This document shows positions 47,446 through 54,912 of a stretch of 64,000 bases of DNA, piece by piece. The DNA lies in NCBI GenBank assembly GCA_017798125.1, contig CP059070.1, positions 2,170,001-2,234,000 of the forward strand, read 5' to 3'. The notes under the pieces are model-generated. The model did no database searches. It saw nothing but the letters and a program-made list of their open reading frames with translations, and had not been told where the DNA came from. A program made the position numbers and the translations under genes. The stretch's first letter is position 1; every line of letters starts with the position of its first letter. The stretch is from Cryomorphaceae bacterium (lineage in GTDB: Bacteria; Bacteroidota; Bacteroidia; Flavobacteriales; ECT2AJA-044).

Positions 47446-47476
47446 AAAAGCCCATGCGTTGAGCGTGGGCTTTTTC
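47446..47476 (+). terminator. intrinsic terminator after the peroxiredoxin gene
   Basis: AAAGCCCATGC pairs with GCGTGGGCTTT (one G-U) with a short loop and a T run. It separates the peroxiredoxin and thiol peroxidase transcripts. Confidence 0.85.
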
Positions 47477-47506
47477 ATTTCAAGCAACTCAAAAAACAAA
47501 TCAAAC

Positions 47507-48007
47507 ATGGCCGAAATTAAATTGGGCGAAAACACCGTCCATACGACTGGAAATCTTCCTGCCGCAGGCAGTGATGCTCCTGATGCAACTTTAGTTGCCA
47601 ACGACTTAAGCGAAGTGCAATTGAGCAGCCACGCTGGAAAACGCGTGATCCTCAACATCTTCCCTTCTATTGATACGGGAGTTTGCGCTGCCTCTGTGCG
47701 TAAGTTTAATGAGGAAGCAGCTGGCCTTGACAATACCGCTGTCTTAAACATTTCATTGGATCTCCCATTCGCCCAAAAGCGCTTCTGCGGAGCTGAGGGA
47801 ATTGAAAATGCCCAGACGCTGAGCGCTTTCCGCAGTTCTTCTTTTGAAGAGGCTTATGGCGTAACAATGACTGATGGTGCTCTGAAAGGACTCTTTTCTA
47901 GAGCCGTAGTTGTGGTAAATGAAAATGGGGACGTTGTCCATTCAGAACAAGTCCCCAGTATTGGTCAAGAGCCGAACTACGAAGCAGCTTTAGCTTCGCT
48001 CAGCTAA
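47507..48007 (+). CDS. tpx: thiol peroxidase (Tpx)
   Basis: 166 residues from [16 protein letters not shown]; upstream in-frame ATGs lie in the terminator. [24 protein letters not shown] carries the peroxidatic Cys, and [12 protein letters not shown] the resolving Cys, the Tpx layout. Convergent with and overlapping the DUF6952 gene by eight bases; its terminator lies inside that gene. Confidence 0.93.
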
Positions 48008-48236
48008 TTGAATTTCTCACCTTCTTGGTGAAGGCGCGGAGGGCTTCTTTTTCCTCTGCGCCTTTTTTTATCTCTTCTTTGATCCAAATGGCACCAAAGA
48101 CATTGGTGAGTTGATCACCTTCATCCACCCCTCCTACTTCAATTTCGGGAGTCTCTCCTTCTTCGATGGCCTGTTCTGCCTTTCTCAGGGTATCCAAATC
48201 GTAGGCCAACAGAGCCTTTATTGCTGGGATCTTCAT
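48000..48236 (-). CDS. DUF6952-type small protein
   Basis: 78 residues beginning [20 protein letters not shown], then an acidic middle and a charged helical C-terminus ([20 protein letters not shown]). This matches the DUF6952 type found beside a thioredoxin gene in Flavobacteriia. Function unknown. The codons for [12 protein letters not shown] also encode the terminator of the convergent tpx gene. Confidence 0.7.
48031..48069 (+). terminator. terminator of tpx, nested in the DUF6952 gene
   Basis: AAGGCGCGGAGG (48031-48042) pairs with CCTCTGCGCCTT (48053-48064), 12 pairs with one G-U, a 10-nt loop, then seven T with the last stem bases. Oriented for tpx (plus) and located within the coding part of the minus-strand neighbour. 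Confidence 0.85.
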
Positions 48237-48238
48237 GA

Positions 48239-48556
48239 TTATCGGTTTTCTTCGATGATTTTGCGCAAGTATTCCTCTTTGCTACTAGCGCTCCCAATCT
48301 TCAATTCTCCTCCCTTGAAGAAGGCCATGAAGGGCAAGTTATCTACCCCGGCCATCTTCCTTACTTCAGGATTCTCCTCCGCATTGACATCGAGAAATAC
48401 GACATCCTGCATTTCGTCTTCGTTGCTGACCCGCTTGTATTTTGGCGCGAAGAGTCGACAGTTTCCACACCAATCGGCATAGAACTTTACGACGACATTC
48501 TCGTTCTCGCTCAAGTACGTTTTAAAATCTTGGTCAGTTGCTGTATGTACGGCCAT
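48239..48556 (-). CDS. thioredoxin
   Basis: 105 residues from MAVHTATDQDFKTYLSENEN; an upstream start is rejected. Active site VKFYADWCGNCRLFAPKYK (CGNC) and cis-Pro region NLPFMAFFKGGEL. Paired with the DUF6952 gene two bases downstream. Minus-strand promoter box TATTTTTG at 48584-48591. Confidence 0.9.
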   Translation of the reverse strand: MAVHTATDQDFKTYLSENENVVVKFYADWCGNCRLFAPKYKRVSNEDEMQDVVFLDVNAEENPEVRKMAGVDNLPFMAFFKGGELKIGSASSKEEYLRKIIEENR

Positions 48557-48583
48557 GATGCTTTGTTTTATCTTTGAACAGTA

Positions 48584-48591
48584 CAAAAATA
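48584..48591 (-). promoter_or_regulatory. -7 promoter box of the thioredoxin-DUF6952 pair
   Basis: Minus-strand TATTTTTG, exact match, 28 bases before the ATG at 48556. Confidence 0.55.
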
Positions 48592-48656
48592 AAGGAGTTC
48601 AATCGCCTGCAGAATTCTGGGCAGATGTTTCTCTCGATAATCTATAAGTTCACTTT

Positions 48657-49913
48657 ATGCGCCGCATTATAGGCTTCACAGCCCTCCTACTCGTCTTTGC
48701 TCTAACGGCTTGCTCGCCTTCAACAGATTCAGATTCCTCGGGAGATGAATCACGTGAATTCAATCGGCCTACGGCCGGATTCTGGAGAGGCGTGCTTTCC
48801 TTGAGCGATACCGTACAGCGTGAATTACCCTTTCAATTTATCTTGGATGGAACGGGTGCGGAGCAGCGCATGGTTATTCAAAATGCCAGTGAGGCAATCG
48901 TGCTGAATCGTATGATTGAACGGGACGATAGCCTTGAAATCGTCTGGCCTGTTTTTGAAAGTGGCTTTGTCGTTTCCTTCACGGACTCTACCATGGAAGG
49001 ATATTGGTATGATCTAAGCCGTGGAGATCAGTACAAGATTCCCTTTAGCGCTGTTTACGGTTCTACCATGCGCTTTTCTACAGACGAAGCTCCTTCAGAG
49101 GACTTTGCGGGGCGCTGGCGAACACATTTTGGAGAAGGCGAAGCGAATGCCCTCGGAATCTTCACGGTGAACCAGTACATCGCCATGGGAAGTTTTGCTA
49201 CGGAGACGGGTGATTATCGCTTCCTCGAAGGGGTTATTGACGGTAGCACGTTCAAGCTATCCACTTTGGATGGCGCTCATGCCTTTTTGTTTGAAGGGAC
49301 CATATACGGAGATAGCCTTTGGGGTATCTTCTACAGCGGGAATCACTACAGCAATACATTCTATGCAATCAGAGATGACGAATACTCTTTAACAGATGCT
49401 GATTCCTTAACCTTCTTGAATGAGGGCTACAGCGGCCTGTCCTTTGCCTTTCCTGATGTGAGCGGCGATACCGTTCGGTTAACGGATTCACAATTCGAGA
49501 ATAAGGCTGTGATTGTGCAGCTATTCGGATCCTGGTGCCCGAACTGTATGGATGAGTCTAAGTACTTGGTCAAGTTGTATGAAGAAAAATACGATCAAGG
49601 ATTACGCGTTGTTGGGCTCGGGTTCGAACGTCACAAAGAATTTGATCGCGCTGCTCAGGCCATTATTAAAATGCGTCAAGACTTATTGATTCCTTACCCC
49701 TTGTTGGTGGCCGGAAGAGCGAGCAAAACAGAGGCCGCTGAAAAACTCCCAATGCTCAATCACGTCTTGAGCTTTCCAACGGCAATTGTACTGAATCGTC
49801 AACATGAAGTCGTGGCCATTCATACGGGGTTCTACGGTCCTGGCACAGGCGATTACTACGATGAATTTGTCGAAGAGTTTGGCGCCGTGGTAGATAGAGC
49901 TTTAGCCCAGTAG
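48657..49913 (+). CDS. TlpA-type thioredoxin lipoprotein
   Basis: 418 residues. Signal peptide with lipobox LTAC near residue 19, so a lipoprotein. Residues about 40-250 are beta-rich with unknown fold. From about residue 270 there is a TlpA/ResA-like redox domain with VQLFGSWCPNCMDESKYLVKLYEEKY (CPNC) and LSFPTAIVLNRQHEVV. Likely thiol-disulphide exchange in the periplasm. Just before its lipobox end begins one of the dispersed palindromes (48765-48780). Confidence 0.87.
   Translation: MRRIIGFTALLLVFALTACSPSTDSDSSGDESREFNRPTAGFWRGVLSLSDTVQRELPFQFILDGTGAEQRMVIQNASEAIVLNRMIERDDSLEIVWPVFESGFVVSFTDSTMEGYWYDLSRGDQYKIPFSAVYGSTMRFSTDEAPSEDFAGRWRTHFGEGEANALGIFTVNQYIAMGSFATETGDYRFLEGVIDGSTFKLSTLDGAHAFLFEGTIYGDSLWGIFYSGNHYSNTFYAIRDDEYSLTDADSLTFLNEGYSGLSFAFPDVSGDTVRLTDSQFENKAVIVQLFGSWCPNCMDESKYLVKLYEEKYDQGLRVVGLGFERHKEFDRAAQAIIKMRQDLLIPYPLLVAGRASKTEAAEKLPMLNHVLSFPTAIVLNRQHEVVAIHTGFYGPGTGDYYDEFVEEFGAVVDRALAQ
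48765..48780 (-). repeat. dispersed palindrome, copy 13
   Basis: Minus-strand ATC-CGG-CCG-T-AGG-CCG; arms pair fully. In the linker just after the lipobox of the TlpA-like gene. Confidence 0.65.
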
Positions 49914-51805: not shown

Positions 51806-53719
51806 ATGGGAGAAAAGAACGTAAGACAGGAGTCAACGGCTGGTGAACTGAAGCAGTTCATGAAGCACTTGATCAAGGATATTCGAGCATTGGAGATCAT
51901 GATTGATCGAGGAATGATCGAAGAAGGGATTCATCGAATTGGAGCAGAGCAAGAACTCTGCTTGATAGATAAAAGCTATCGACCAGCTCCGCGAGCCCTC
52001 GAAATGCTGGAAAAGTTGAATCACGATAAGTTTACTCATGAATTGAGTCGATTCAATTTAGAAGTGAATCTTGATCCAGCTGAATTCAAGGGCGGCTGCC
52101 TGAAGCAGATGGAGGATCAGCTTCGAAATTGTCTTGAATGCCTTCACAAAGAGCTTGAGCCGCACGAGCTCGATTATATTCTGGTCGGCATTCTCCCGAG
52201 TATTCGACTCTCGGATATGACCTTGGACAATTTGACTCCACTCCCCCGCTATTTTGCGTTGAACGATCGTTTATCCGATCTCCGAGGAGAAGCATATGAG
52301 TTTCGGATTGAAGGAACGGACGAACTCATCACCAAACATGATTCCCTGATGTTCGAAAGCTGCAATACGAGCTTTCAAATCCATTTTCAAGTAGGCGCAG
52401 AAGACTTCACTTCTTACTACAATTGGGCTCAAGCCATTACTGGTCCAGTACTAAGCGCATGTACCAACTCCCCTATTCTATTCGGACGTCGATTGTGGCG
52501 GGAGACCAGAATAGCCTTATTTCAACAGTCCACAGATACACGAAGTAATCACCAATATACCCGAGAAGACGCGCCTAGAGTGTTGTTGGGGAATTCTTGG
52601 CTGAATGGAAGTATCGTCGATTTGTACAAAGAAGATATAGCACGATACCGGGTATTGATTAGTTCTGAAATTGAAGAGGATTCCTTAGAGCAATTAAAGG
52701 AAGGCGCTATCCCAAATTTGTCCGCCCTTAAAATGCACAACGGTACCATTTATAAATGGAACCGGGCCTGCTTCGGTGCGACGAACGGGATTCCGCATTT
52801 GCGCATTGAGAACAGATACATCCCTTCTGGACCATCGGTGCTGGATGAGATGGCCAATATGGCATTCTGGTTAGGACTCATGCACGGAATGCCGGACGAG
52901 TACCGCAACCTCCATGAAACCCATGACTTCGATACGGTAAAAGCCAACTTTAACCGAGCTTGCCGCATGGGCATGGGTTCCATGTTCCGTTGGTTAGATG
53001 GCAAAGTCTACAGCGCTCATGATTTGATCTTACAAATCCTCATTCCATTGGCCAAGGATGGACTTCGCAAGGCTAAAATTCACGAAAAGGATATCACGCG
53101 TTATTTGAAGGTCATTGAAGGGCGCGTGGAAACGGGAATGTCCGGTAGTCAGTGGATTCTTGATTCTTTTGACAAGCTCAAGAATACAGGAACTAAAGAT
53201 GAAATCATGTTGGCGATTACTGCTGGAATTGCGCGTCGTCAAAAAAAGAATACACCAATCCACAAATGGTCTTTGAGCAAAATTGACGAGGCCGGTAGTT
53301 GGATCAATAGGTATTGGCGAATTGATCAAATCATGTCCGTGAACTTGATTACGGTTAATGAAAATGATTTGTTGGACATTGTACCGAACATCATGAATTG
53401 GCGCCAAATAAGACACGTTCTCGTTGAAAACAACAAGAACGAGCTTGTAGGGCTGTTGACTTCTGGAAATCTGATTCACTACTACTCCACTCGACTGACC
53501 GATGAAACGCAAGAGGCGCTGGTCAAGGATGTAATGATCAAGAAACCCATTTGCGTCACACCGGATACGCTGACCAAGGATGCCATCTCTATTATGCGTA
53601 AGCACAAGATTGGATGCCTTCCTGTAGTCCGGAGTAAAAAAGAGCTTATCGGCATTGTTACAGAACATGATTTCGTTAATGTTGCAGACCATTTTCTACA
53701 GGAATTCTTGAAAGAATAA
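51806..53719 (+). CDS. GCS2-type carboxylate-amine ligase fused to two CBS domains
   Basis: 637 residues. Residues about 20-400 look like the glutamate-cysteine ligase type 2 (GCS2) fold: RIGAEQELCLID, FNLEVNLDPAEF, then FESCNTSFQIHFQV and NRYIPSGPSVLDEMANMAFW. The last 130 residues form a CBS pair (DQIMSVNLITVNENDLLDIVPNIMNWRQIRHVLVEN; VKDVMIKKPICVTPDTLTKDAISIMRKHKIGCLPVV). CBS pairs usually bind adenosine nucleotides and could regulate the ligase. Followed after two bases by an aspartoacylase-like hydrolase. The substrate is unknown; simple glutathione synthesis is not implied. Confidence 0.82.
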   Translation: MGEKNVRQESTAGELKQFMKHLIKDIRALEIMIDRGMIEEGIHRIGAEQELCLIDKSYRPAPRALEMLEKLNHDKFTHELSRFNLEVNLDPAEFKGGCLKQMEDQLRNCLECLHKELEPHELDYILVGILPSIRLSDMTLDNLTPLPRYFALNDRLSDLRGEAYEFRIEGTDELITKHDSLMFESCNTSFQIHFQVGAEDFTSYYNWAQAITGPVLSACTNSPILFGRRLWRETRIALFQQSTDTRSNHQYTREDAPRVLLGNSWLNGSIVDLYKEDIARYRVLISSEIEEDSLEQLKEGAIPNLSALKMHNGTIYKWNRACFGATNGIPHLRIENRYIPSGPSVLDEMANMAFWLGLMHGMPDEYRNLHETHDFDTVKANFNRACRMGMGSMFRWLDGKVYSAHDLILQILIPLAKDGLRKAKIHEKDITRYLKVIEGRVETGMSGSQWILDSFDKLKNTGTKDEIMLAITAGIARRQKKNTPIHKWSLSKIDEAGSWINRYWRIDQIMSVNLITVNENDLLDIVPNIMNWRQIRHVLVENNKNELVGLLTSGNLIHYYSTRLTDETQEALVKDVMIKKPICVTPDTLTKDAISIMRKHKIGCLPVVRSKKELIGIVTEHDFVNVADHFLQEFLKE

Positions 53720-53721
53720 AG

Positions 53722-54912
53722 GTGCTCCAAACCGAACTGAAAACTACCTTGGTCGATCGCGTCATTCTCGAAATAGACAGTGGCATTCCTGGACCTACCC
53801 TTTTGGTCATAGGAGGAATACACGGAAACGAGCCTTCTGGTGTTGAAGCGCTCGAAAGAATACGCGAGGCCTTTAATCGTGGCACGATAAAGCTAAATCA
53901 GGGAAGAATTCTTGCATTACGAGGCAATCGCAGAGCACTCACTGAAGAAGTTCGCTATATCAAAAGAGATTTAAACCGCCTTTGGAAATGGGACTTTCAA
54001 CATCAATGTCCTATTGATCCAACTTCGGAAGATCCAGATGATGAATACGACGAATACTGTGATCTTCAATACCGAATTCATCGGGCCATTGAAGAACGCG
54101 AAGGCCCTATCTGCTTCTTAGACCTACACACGACGTCTGCAGTCAGCCCTCCCTTCATCATGGTCGGAGATACTCTTAGAAATAGGGACTTGGTCGACGG
54201 GATTCCGGTTCCCATAGTCTTAGGCGTAGAAGAGCAGTTGGATGGCCCTCTCTTGAGCTATATCAATGAACTAGGGCATCTGTCGGTGGGATTTGAAGCT
54301 GGGCAGCATCAGGCTGAAGAATCAGCTGACGCCCATGAGGCCTTAGTCAAGGTCATTCTTTATCGACTAGGAATGCTCAACGAAGAGTACGTAGCTGTTG
54401 TGGATAGTGCTCTAGACCAATTGGCGGAACTGGGCGGTCATTTGTCTAATTTCTTTGAAGTTCGACATCGACATGGTATTACTGCGGAAGACGAATTTGT
54501 CATGAAGCCGGGCTATGCCAACTTCCAAAAGGTCGAACGCGGTCAAATACTTGCAAAGGATAAAGATGGAATGATTCAAATGCCAGAGGAAGGCCGTGTA
54601 TTCATGCCGCTATATCAGAAGCAAGGAAATGACGGGTTCTTCCAGATCCGGCGGATCAAACGCTTCTGGCTCGGACTATCTAGAATTCTTCGAAGACTAG
54701 GTGTTTACAGGATTCTGCCCCTGCTGCCAGGAGTTCAGAGGGCTGACAAGAATCCTCTCCTCTTGACGATAAACACCAAGATTGCCGGCATTTATCCACG
54801 AGAAATATTCCATCTATTGGGATATCGAAAAATTCGGAAAAGCGAAGGTGTTTTGTCCATGCAAAAAAGGCCCTTCGATTTCGAAGAGCCTCCTTTACCT
54901 AATAGGTCATAA
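53722..54912 (+). CDS. succinylglutamate desuccinylase/aspartoacylase family protein
   Basis: 396 residues with a GTG start at 53722. Zinc carboxypeptidase-like motif LVIGGIHGNEPSGVEALERI near the N-terminus, RGNRRAL, IKRDLNRLW, FLDLHTTSA, and VGFEAGQHQAEESADAHEAL. The family hydrolyses N-acyl amino acids or peptides. Two bases after the GCS2-CBS gene. Its last codons overlap the terminator of the convergent YceI-like gene. Confidence 0.8.
   Translation: MLQTELKTTLVDRVILEIDSGIPGPTLLVIGGIHGNEPSGVEALERIREAFNRGTIKLNQGRILALRGNRRALTEEVRYIKRDLNRLWKWDFQHQCPIDPTSEDPDDEYDEYCDLQYRIHRAIEEREGPICFLDLHTTSAVSPPFIMVGDTLRNRDLVDGIPVPIVLGVEEQLDGPLLSYINELGHLSVGFEAGQHQAEESADAHEALVKVILYRLGMLNEEYVAVVDSALDQLAELGGHLSNFFEVRHRHGITAEDEFVMKPGYANFQKVERGQILAKDKDGMIQMPEEGRVFMPLYQKQGNDGFFQIRRIKRFWLGLSRILRRLGVYRILPLLPGVQRADKNPLLLTINTKIAGIYPREIFHLLGYRKIRKSEGVLSMQKRPFDFEEPPLPNRS
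54863..54890 (-). terminator. terminator of the YceI-like gene, nested in the aspartoacylase-like gene
   Basis: On the minus strand GGCTCTTCG and CGAAGGGCC pair with minor mismatch, AAAT loop, then six T. It lies 27 bases past the YceI-like stop and within the last codons of the plus-strand gene. Confidence 0.75.

Follow-up and report, generated by a model that had tools for sequence, protein, structure and literature searches.

A GCS2-fold ligase with a CBS-domain pair and its adjoining AstE/AspA-type hydrolase: a candidate make-and-break module in Bacteroidota

We analysed a 64,000-nucleotide stretch of DNA from a Cryomorphaceae bacterium (contig CP059070.1, positions 2,170,001 to 2,234,000; hereafter the window), in which a GCS2-fold ligase fused to two CBS domains is encoded directly upstream of an AstE/AspA-type hydrolase. 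The domain families, folds, intact catalytic motifs and conserved adjacency of the two proteins were computed; from these we infer the substrates, the direction of the reactions, the nucleotide control and the action of the hydrolase on the ligase product. We hold with moderate confidence that the pair forms a two-gene make-and-break module, in which an amide of gamma-glutamyl or aspartyl type would be made by a nucleotide-regulated ligase and broken down or trimmed by its partner hydrolase. This reading is based on the GAEQE signature and other invariant residues of the ligase, its YbdK-like fold, the H-E-H and R-N-R residues of the hydrolase, the adjacency of the genes in 57/88 genomes, their co-occurrence in 47/49 and a precedent from cyanophycin gene clusters. 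A first-pass annotation of the window, made from the sequence alone, had proposed that the pair may make and trim a gamma-glutamyl or peptide compound under nucleotide control. Its observation was confirmed and its interpretation is partly supported, with make-and-trim under nucleotide control being plausible.

Families, folds and catalytic residues of the two proteins

The ligase open reading frame (ORF) occupies positions 51806-53719 of the window on the + strand and encodes 637 amino acids (aa). The hydrolase ORF follows on the + strand at 53722-54912, encoding 396 aa from a GTG start at 53722. The ligase stop codon TAA lies at 53717-53719, leaving 2 nt before the hydrolase GTG; these coordinates and the gap are as first annotated. 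Between the window and a same-genus genome (L101), synonymous codon differences number 320 in the ligase and 165 in the hydrolase, against 71 and 96 non-synonymous ones, respectively. Judging from these differences, both ORFs seem to be genuine genes kept by purifying selection rather than chance ORFs.

The N-terminal part of the ligase (residues 1-491; 51806..53278, + strand) corresponds, by fold and motifs, to a GCS2-fold (YbdK-like) ATP-dependent carboxylate-amine ligase domain. The window protein itself scored 17-18 bits against PF04107 (GCS2), below the Pfam gathering cut-off of 21, and thus falls outside the membership threshold. A PF04107 search of the entire host genome returned nothing at E <= 1 and missed the window ligase itself, which therefore lies far from that model. 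When 17 members of the ligase family were scanned singly, 14 gave a GCS2 match at E <= 1, the best at 1.4e-11. NCBIfam yielded zero models for the N-terminal half at E <= 0.001, and a search of PDB sequences with a ligase-half profile returned two chance-level sequences and nothing else. Neither search matched the ligase to a characterised glutathione enzyme, and to this extent the first-pass annotation is supported. A DUF438 match at residues 8-44 (E 0.02-0.04) was dismissed as chance.

The ligase alignment comprises 72 rows, namely the window protein and 71 of the 75 proteins in its cluster (the remaining four, below 470 aa in length, were dropped); L014 and L054 are apparently one locus counted twice. 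Thirteen positions (G46, E48, E50, E79, N84, E86, E184, Q191, H193, Q195, E233, R235 and R258) are identical in 72/72 rows, and R333, E335 and R337 in 71/72. The first three form part of an invariant GAEQE that matches the GhExE signature. This signature is part of the Mg/ATP site in GCS2 and is also described for PafA, according to PMC2588565.

An AlphaFold2 model of the whole ligase, built from 14 sequences, reached a mean predicted local distance difference test score (pLDDT) of 83.0 and a predicted template modelling score (pTM) of 0.80. It matched YbdK (1r8g) with Z 36.0 (residues 25-480 aligned), 1tt4, a Salmonella protein titled predicted glutathione synthase, with Z 36.1 (345 residues, root-mean-square deviation 2.8), and plant glutamate-cysteine ligase (2gwc) with Z 30.1 (residues 16-479 aligned). 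Yeast and other ligases followed at Z 21-26 and the Dop/PafA group at Z 17-21. Foldseek with the same model placed plant glutamate-cysteine ligase and YbdK among the first five rows. Sequence identity to ligase-fold structures was at most 17% among the matches listed (11-17% for the YbdK and plant ligase rows). With chance-level sequences from the PDB profile search and no significance in a comparison with a single YbdK sequence (discussed below), the fold comparison decided the GCS2-fold question. On the family members' PF04107 matches, the invariant GAEQE and the predicted fold, rather than on the Pfam threshold for the window protein, the protein is a GCS2-fold ligase with an apparently intact active site, and the original assignment stands on this footing.

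The ligase C-terminus carries the CBS-domain pair (about residues 506-637; 53321..53719, + strand, stop codon included), which PF00571 matched in two stretches with 82.7 bits, in agreement with the two domains first annotated. The fold matches also include CBS pairs at Z ~19, among them AcuB structures with AMP, ADP and ATP. We take the adenosine-nucleotide motif of CBS repeats to be S/T-x-x-D/N. Of the 65 rows that bear CBS domains, 62 have T619 in repeat 2 and 61 have D or N at position 622, a pattern that, with the motif so defined, suggests one or more conserved candidate sites for adenosine nucleotides in each CBS pair. At a further locus (L015:5576-5986), a stand-alone CBS protein is encoded 14 nt upstream of a GCS2-CBS gene and is 28% identical to the window CBS region.

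The hydrolase (53722..54912, + strand) scored 63.5 bits against PF24827 (AstE_AspA_cat), well over the cut-off of 25. Two NCBIfam equivalog models also matched, far below their cut-offs: TIGR03242 (succinylglutamate desuccinylase) at 47.4 bits against 305.65, and NF002601 (aspartoacylase) at 46 bits against 180. Seven residues, H34, E37, H136, R78, N85, R86 and E192, are invariant in 10/10 aligned hydrolase sequences. After aspartoacylase, we take H34, E37 and H136 (H-x-x-E plus a distal H) to be zinc ligands and R78, N85 and R86 to be substrate binders. The predicted model (mean pLDDT 81.3) matched succinylglutamate desuccinylases with Z 21.3-23.8, DoeB with 21.8, aspartoacylase with ~20.9 and the cyanophycin dipeptide hydrolase CphZ with 18.7. 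Family model, fold matches and motif residues confirm the protein as a predicted AstE/AspA-type zinc amidohydrolase with its catalytic motif kept. The hydrolase class given by the first-pass annotation therefore holds, and the catalytic residues, which it had singled out for comparison, are kept in both proteins. A precedent comes from cyanophycin synthetase clusters, in which some enzymes annotated as AstE/AspA-family or M14 are reported in PMC10206079, from a further study cited there, to be isoaspartyl dipeptidases.

Distribution, gene order and variant loci

We used a sample of 296 genomes from the phylum Bacteroidota, with a cut-off of E <= 1e-20 for the ligase and E <= 1e-10 for relatives of the window AstE-type protein. 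The ligase is present in 88/296 genomes. A close AstE relative is present in 49/296, and 47 of these 49 also have the ligase. In 42 of these 47, a search with the window protein places the AstE-type gene immediately downstream of the ligase in the same orientation, with 5-169 nt between matches. A PF24827 search (E <= 0.001) was run on 48 genomes, comprising the 41 other ligase genomes, five genomes of family f6 in which AstE and ligase are unlinked, and the genomes G054 and G274; it added 15 adjacent ligase-AstE cases, all in family f18. The adjacent pair on one strand is thus found in 57/88 ligase genomes, spanning 5 families and 18 genera.

In the loci read, the outer flanks of the pair differ between families. 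In family f24 the pair is preceded by PriA and followed by ScpB, a pseudouridine synthase and an alpha/beta hydrolase; divergent genes near the pair in other families encode TPR, DUF4292 and M23 peptidase proteins (one representative of each typed). As pathway members, these neighbours were set aside as probably unrelated; an HhH-GPD repair gene adjoining one of the unlinked f6 AstE genes was likewise set aside. A short-peptide-pattern scan of 84,980 species genomes, narrow in design and no census, returned 15 loci, 14 of them titled Bacteroidota and one a Balneolales metagenome-assembled genome. A plasmid collection contained three actinobacterial ligase relatives, with the match ending at residue 488-490. 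At L021:6424-9046, the ligase and hydrolase frames are both broken into pieces, reflecting frameshifts or sequencing errors.

Two tandem GCS2-CBS copies followed by one AstE occur in five g85 genomes (G109, G120, G172, G204 and G267) and one g116 genome (G212). The tandem loci are L085, L086, L087, L102 and L103, plus L098 with a fragmentary extra copy; the extra copy is fragmentary in G172. Both ligase copies of G109 (L086) keep the catalytic motifs. At six f18 loci (L077-L080, L099 and L100), a CBS-less ligase is followed by a highly divergent AstE-type gene.

The first-pass annotation had stated that such pairs are often joined in other bacteria by a RimK-like ATP-grasp ligase, that none is seen nearby, and that a partner should be sought in the host genome. 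Ligase genomes with a RimK-family match (E <= 1e-15) anywhere number 52/88 and those with such a match no more than 15 kb from the ligase 0/88, and there is none near the window pair either; the local absence is borne out and the frequent association is not. RimK does share a strand with an AstE-type gene at most 1.5 kb away at 10 places among the genomes searched, a number that may miss further places as PF24827 was searched in 48 genomes only. At the 3/3 loci checked (L112, L115 and L121), a PF05618 (RimB-type) protease gene, RimK and the AstE-type gene follow one another on one strand; RimB and its relatives are described in PMC12239564.

An AstE tree of 57 rows, from which pieces shorter than 290 aa were left out, separated the two groups. 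One branch (35 rows, 99/96) holds 28 GCS2-linked sequences, the five f6 sequences and two GSH-S-linked ones; another (16 rows, 100/98) holds 10 RimK-linked sequences and six paralogues. By these well-supported branches, with f18 apart, the RimK-linked AstE is a lineage other than that of the window. The trio with RimK first proposed therefore mixes two systems.

In the host genome, PF08443 (RimK) gave two weak matches, one of 22.6 bits, above the cut-off of 21, and one of 20.5 bits. Both fit CPSase_L_D2 better. The first protein, whose Pfam domains are those of a biotin carboxylase, reaches 277.9 bits with that model; in the second, the matched stretch scores 50.4 bits and resembles a carbamoyl-phosphate synthase ATP-binding domain more than RimK. 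We rejected a RimK partner for the window pair, as the host hits fit the carboxylase-type ATP-grasp domain better and no RimK-family match (E <= 1e-15) came within 15 kb of a surveyed ligase gene.

Within the window, prfC (RF3_C and elongation-factor domains by Pfam) ends 45 bases upstream of the ligase, and the order prfC-ligase-hydrolase recurs in the same-genus genome. Downstream of the pair, the opposite strand encodes a YceI-like protein, FolD (both by Pfam) and then Ffh (translation read by eye). Upstream of prfC, peroxiredoxin-like, thioredoxin-like and TlpA-like redox genes are grouped at 47459-49913, as read by eye.

A make-and-break module and competing readings

In the module that we propose, the ligase would activate a carboxylate with ATP, the likeliest being the gamma-carboxylate of glutamate or of a comparable acidic amino acid, and join it to an amine, as in other GCS2-fold ligases. 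The CBS pair would sense an adenosine nucleotide and tune ligase activity. The zinc amidohydrolase would cleave the amide product of the ligase, or a derivative thereof, and the pair would thereby set the level of a small gamma-glutamyl- or isopeptide-type metabolite.

Several observations weigh against this proposal. The single YbdK sequence was not significant against the ligase family profile, yet its GIELE aligned to the family GAEQE. For nucleotide control, the window has T-S-G-N in repeat 1 of the CBS pair, but the column of N555 varies across the CBS-bearing rows of the family. Moreover, the ligase match in 16 f18 genomes stops at about residue 490, short of the CBS pair, and CBS control is therefore not universal. 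As to the pairing, the ligase lacks an adjoining AstE-type match in 31/88 genomes. Among the 41 ligase genomes lacking a close AstE relative, 12 have no PF24827 match (E <= 0.001) genome-wide; the hydrolase is therefore not always needed. Conversely, the close AstE relative is unlinked to the ligase in the five f6 genomes, and six f18 AstE rows form a long separate branch, too divergent to be placed with the window AstE lineage. Finally, G054 and G274 (L090:3713-7620 and L091) carry the window AstE lineage beside a GshB-type ATP-grasp and a MATCAP-type peptidase. The G054 neighbours were typed by PF02955 (171.8 bits; GshB-type ATP-grasp) and PF08014 (263.6 bits; MATCAP-type), those of G274 belong to the same clusters, and a search at E <= 1e-20 found no relative of the ligase in either genome. 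There is therefore no strict one-to-one tie of AstE to one ligase, and the arrangement fits a window AstE lineage that may serve amide ligases more generally. In the host genome, PF08014 (MATCAP) and PF02955 (GSH-S_ATP) gave no match at E <= 1.

The pair may instead belong to a sequential pathway, in which a gamma-glutamyl or comparable group, attached by the ligase, would serve as carrier or protection while a further enzyme alters the amine, after which the AstE-type hydrolase would take the group off and free the product. AstE and DoeB are late deacylases of multi-step pathways, and structures of both are among the hydrolase fold matches; the tandem GCS2-CBS copies before one AstE in six genomes would also suit such a scheme. 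Against this, no third gene was consistently seen with the pair, its outer neighbours vary and the ones typed for one family are housekeeping genes (for example PriA, ScpB and a pseudouridine synthase). We regard this pathway as possible but doubtful.

Equally tentative is a broader form of the make-and-break module, an energy-charge-controlled metabolite cycle of Bacteroidota. Here the CBS-gated ligase would make a gamma-glutamyl or beta-aspartyl conjugate serving as nitrogen store, osmolyte or signal, and a dedicated isopeptidase of the AstE lineage would recover the amino acids. In some relatives this hydrolase lineage would have swapped its ligase for a GshB-type ATP-grasp enzyme, and in others doubled ligases would build longer chains.

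That the ligase is a gamma-glutamylcysteine ligase for glutathione or another low-molecular-weight thiol is improbable, even though plant glutamate-cysteine ligase (Z 30.1) and YbdK (Z 36.0) are among its fold matches. A search of the host genome for GSH-S ATP-grasp proteins gave nothing at E <= 1, the RimK model gave just two weak hits there, both from other ATP-grasp proteins, and the N-terminal half of the ligase has no NCBIfam match at E <= 0.001. In addition, the bacillithiol-pathway protein BshC is encoded in the host (E 7.3e-116). Because of the missing GSH-S match and the presence of BshC, glutathione synthesis by the window ligase is unlikely.

A purely historical neighbourhood with no shared pathway would accommodate the 31/88 ligase genomes without an adjoining AstE-type match, but is hardly probable given that the ligase-AstE order is kept on one strand in 57/88 genomes and 18 genera with differing outer flanks, and that 47/49 close-AstE genomes have the ligase, as against 88/296 overall.

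Should an amide compound indeed be made and recycled under nucleotide control, these bacteria would hold an unrecognised metabolite pool tied to their energy state. The ligase occurs in 88/296 sampled genomes of one large phylum, yet neither half of the pair could be assigned a function already characterised. With its clear gene order, its intact active sites and the cyanophycin-cluster precedent, the pair is directly testable with two purified proteins.

Comparison with known systems

Title searches of the open literature gave no paper on a GCS2-CBS ligase or on an AstE pairing among the matches listed; the main amidoligase survey (Iyer 2009, cited in PMC4431377) was outside their scope and may mention the pair, so the novelty of the GCS2-CBS/AstE pair is provisional.

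With the YbdK/GCS2 family (PF04107) and plant glutamate-cysteine ligase, the window protein shares the fold of the ligase half and the GhExE-type signature GAEQE. It differs in being only 11-17% identical to YbdK and the plant ligase, in scoring below the PF04107 cut-off and in being paired with an AstE-type gene. It also carries a CBS pair, with which no GCS2-fold match listed is described. Closer in sequence are CBS-less proteins of Actinomycetota named 'glutamate-cysteine ligase family protein', found in three plasmid records, with 31-37% identity over residues ~17-490. In the two annotated records, their coding sequences measure 1479 and 1509 nt, roughly as long as the ligase half, and the gene table, which is incomplete, lists no AstE up to 5 kb away.

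The hydrolase resembles the AstE/AspA family (succinylglutamate desuccinylase, aspartoacylase, DoeB and CphZ) in fold (Z 18.7-23.8), in its H-E-H and R-N-R residues and in matching PF24827. It is set apart by scores far under both NCBIfam cut-offs and by its place beside a GCS2-CBS ligase. The RimB-RimK-AstE loci of this phylum likewise place the gene for an amide ligase next to one of AstE type, but there the ligase is an ATP-grasp enzyme, the AstE belongs to the other lineage and a PF05618 protease gene precedes RimK (3/3).

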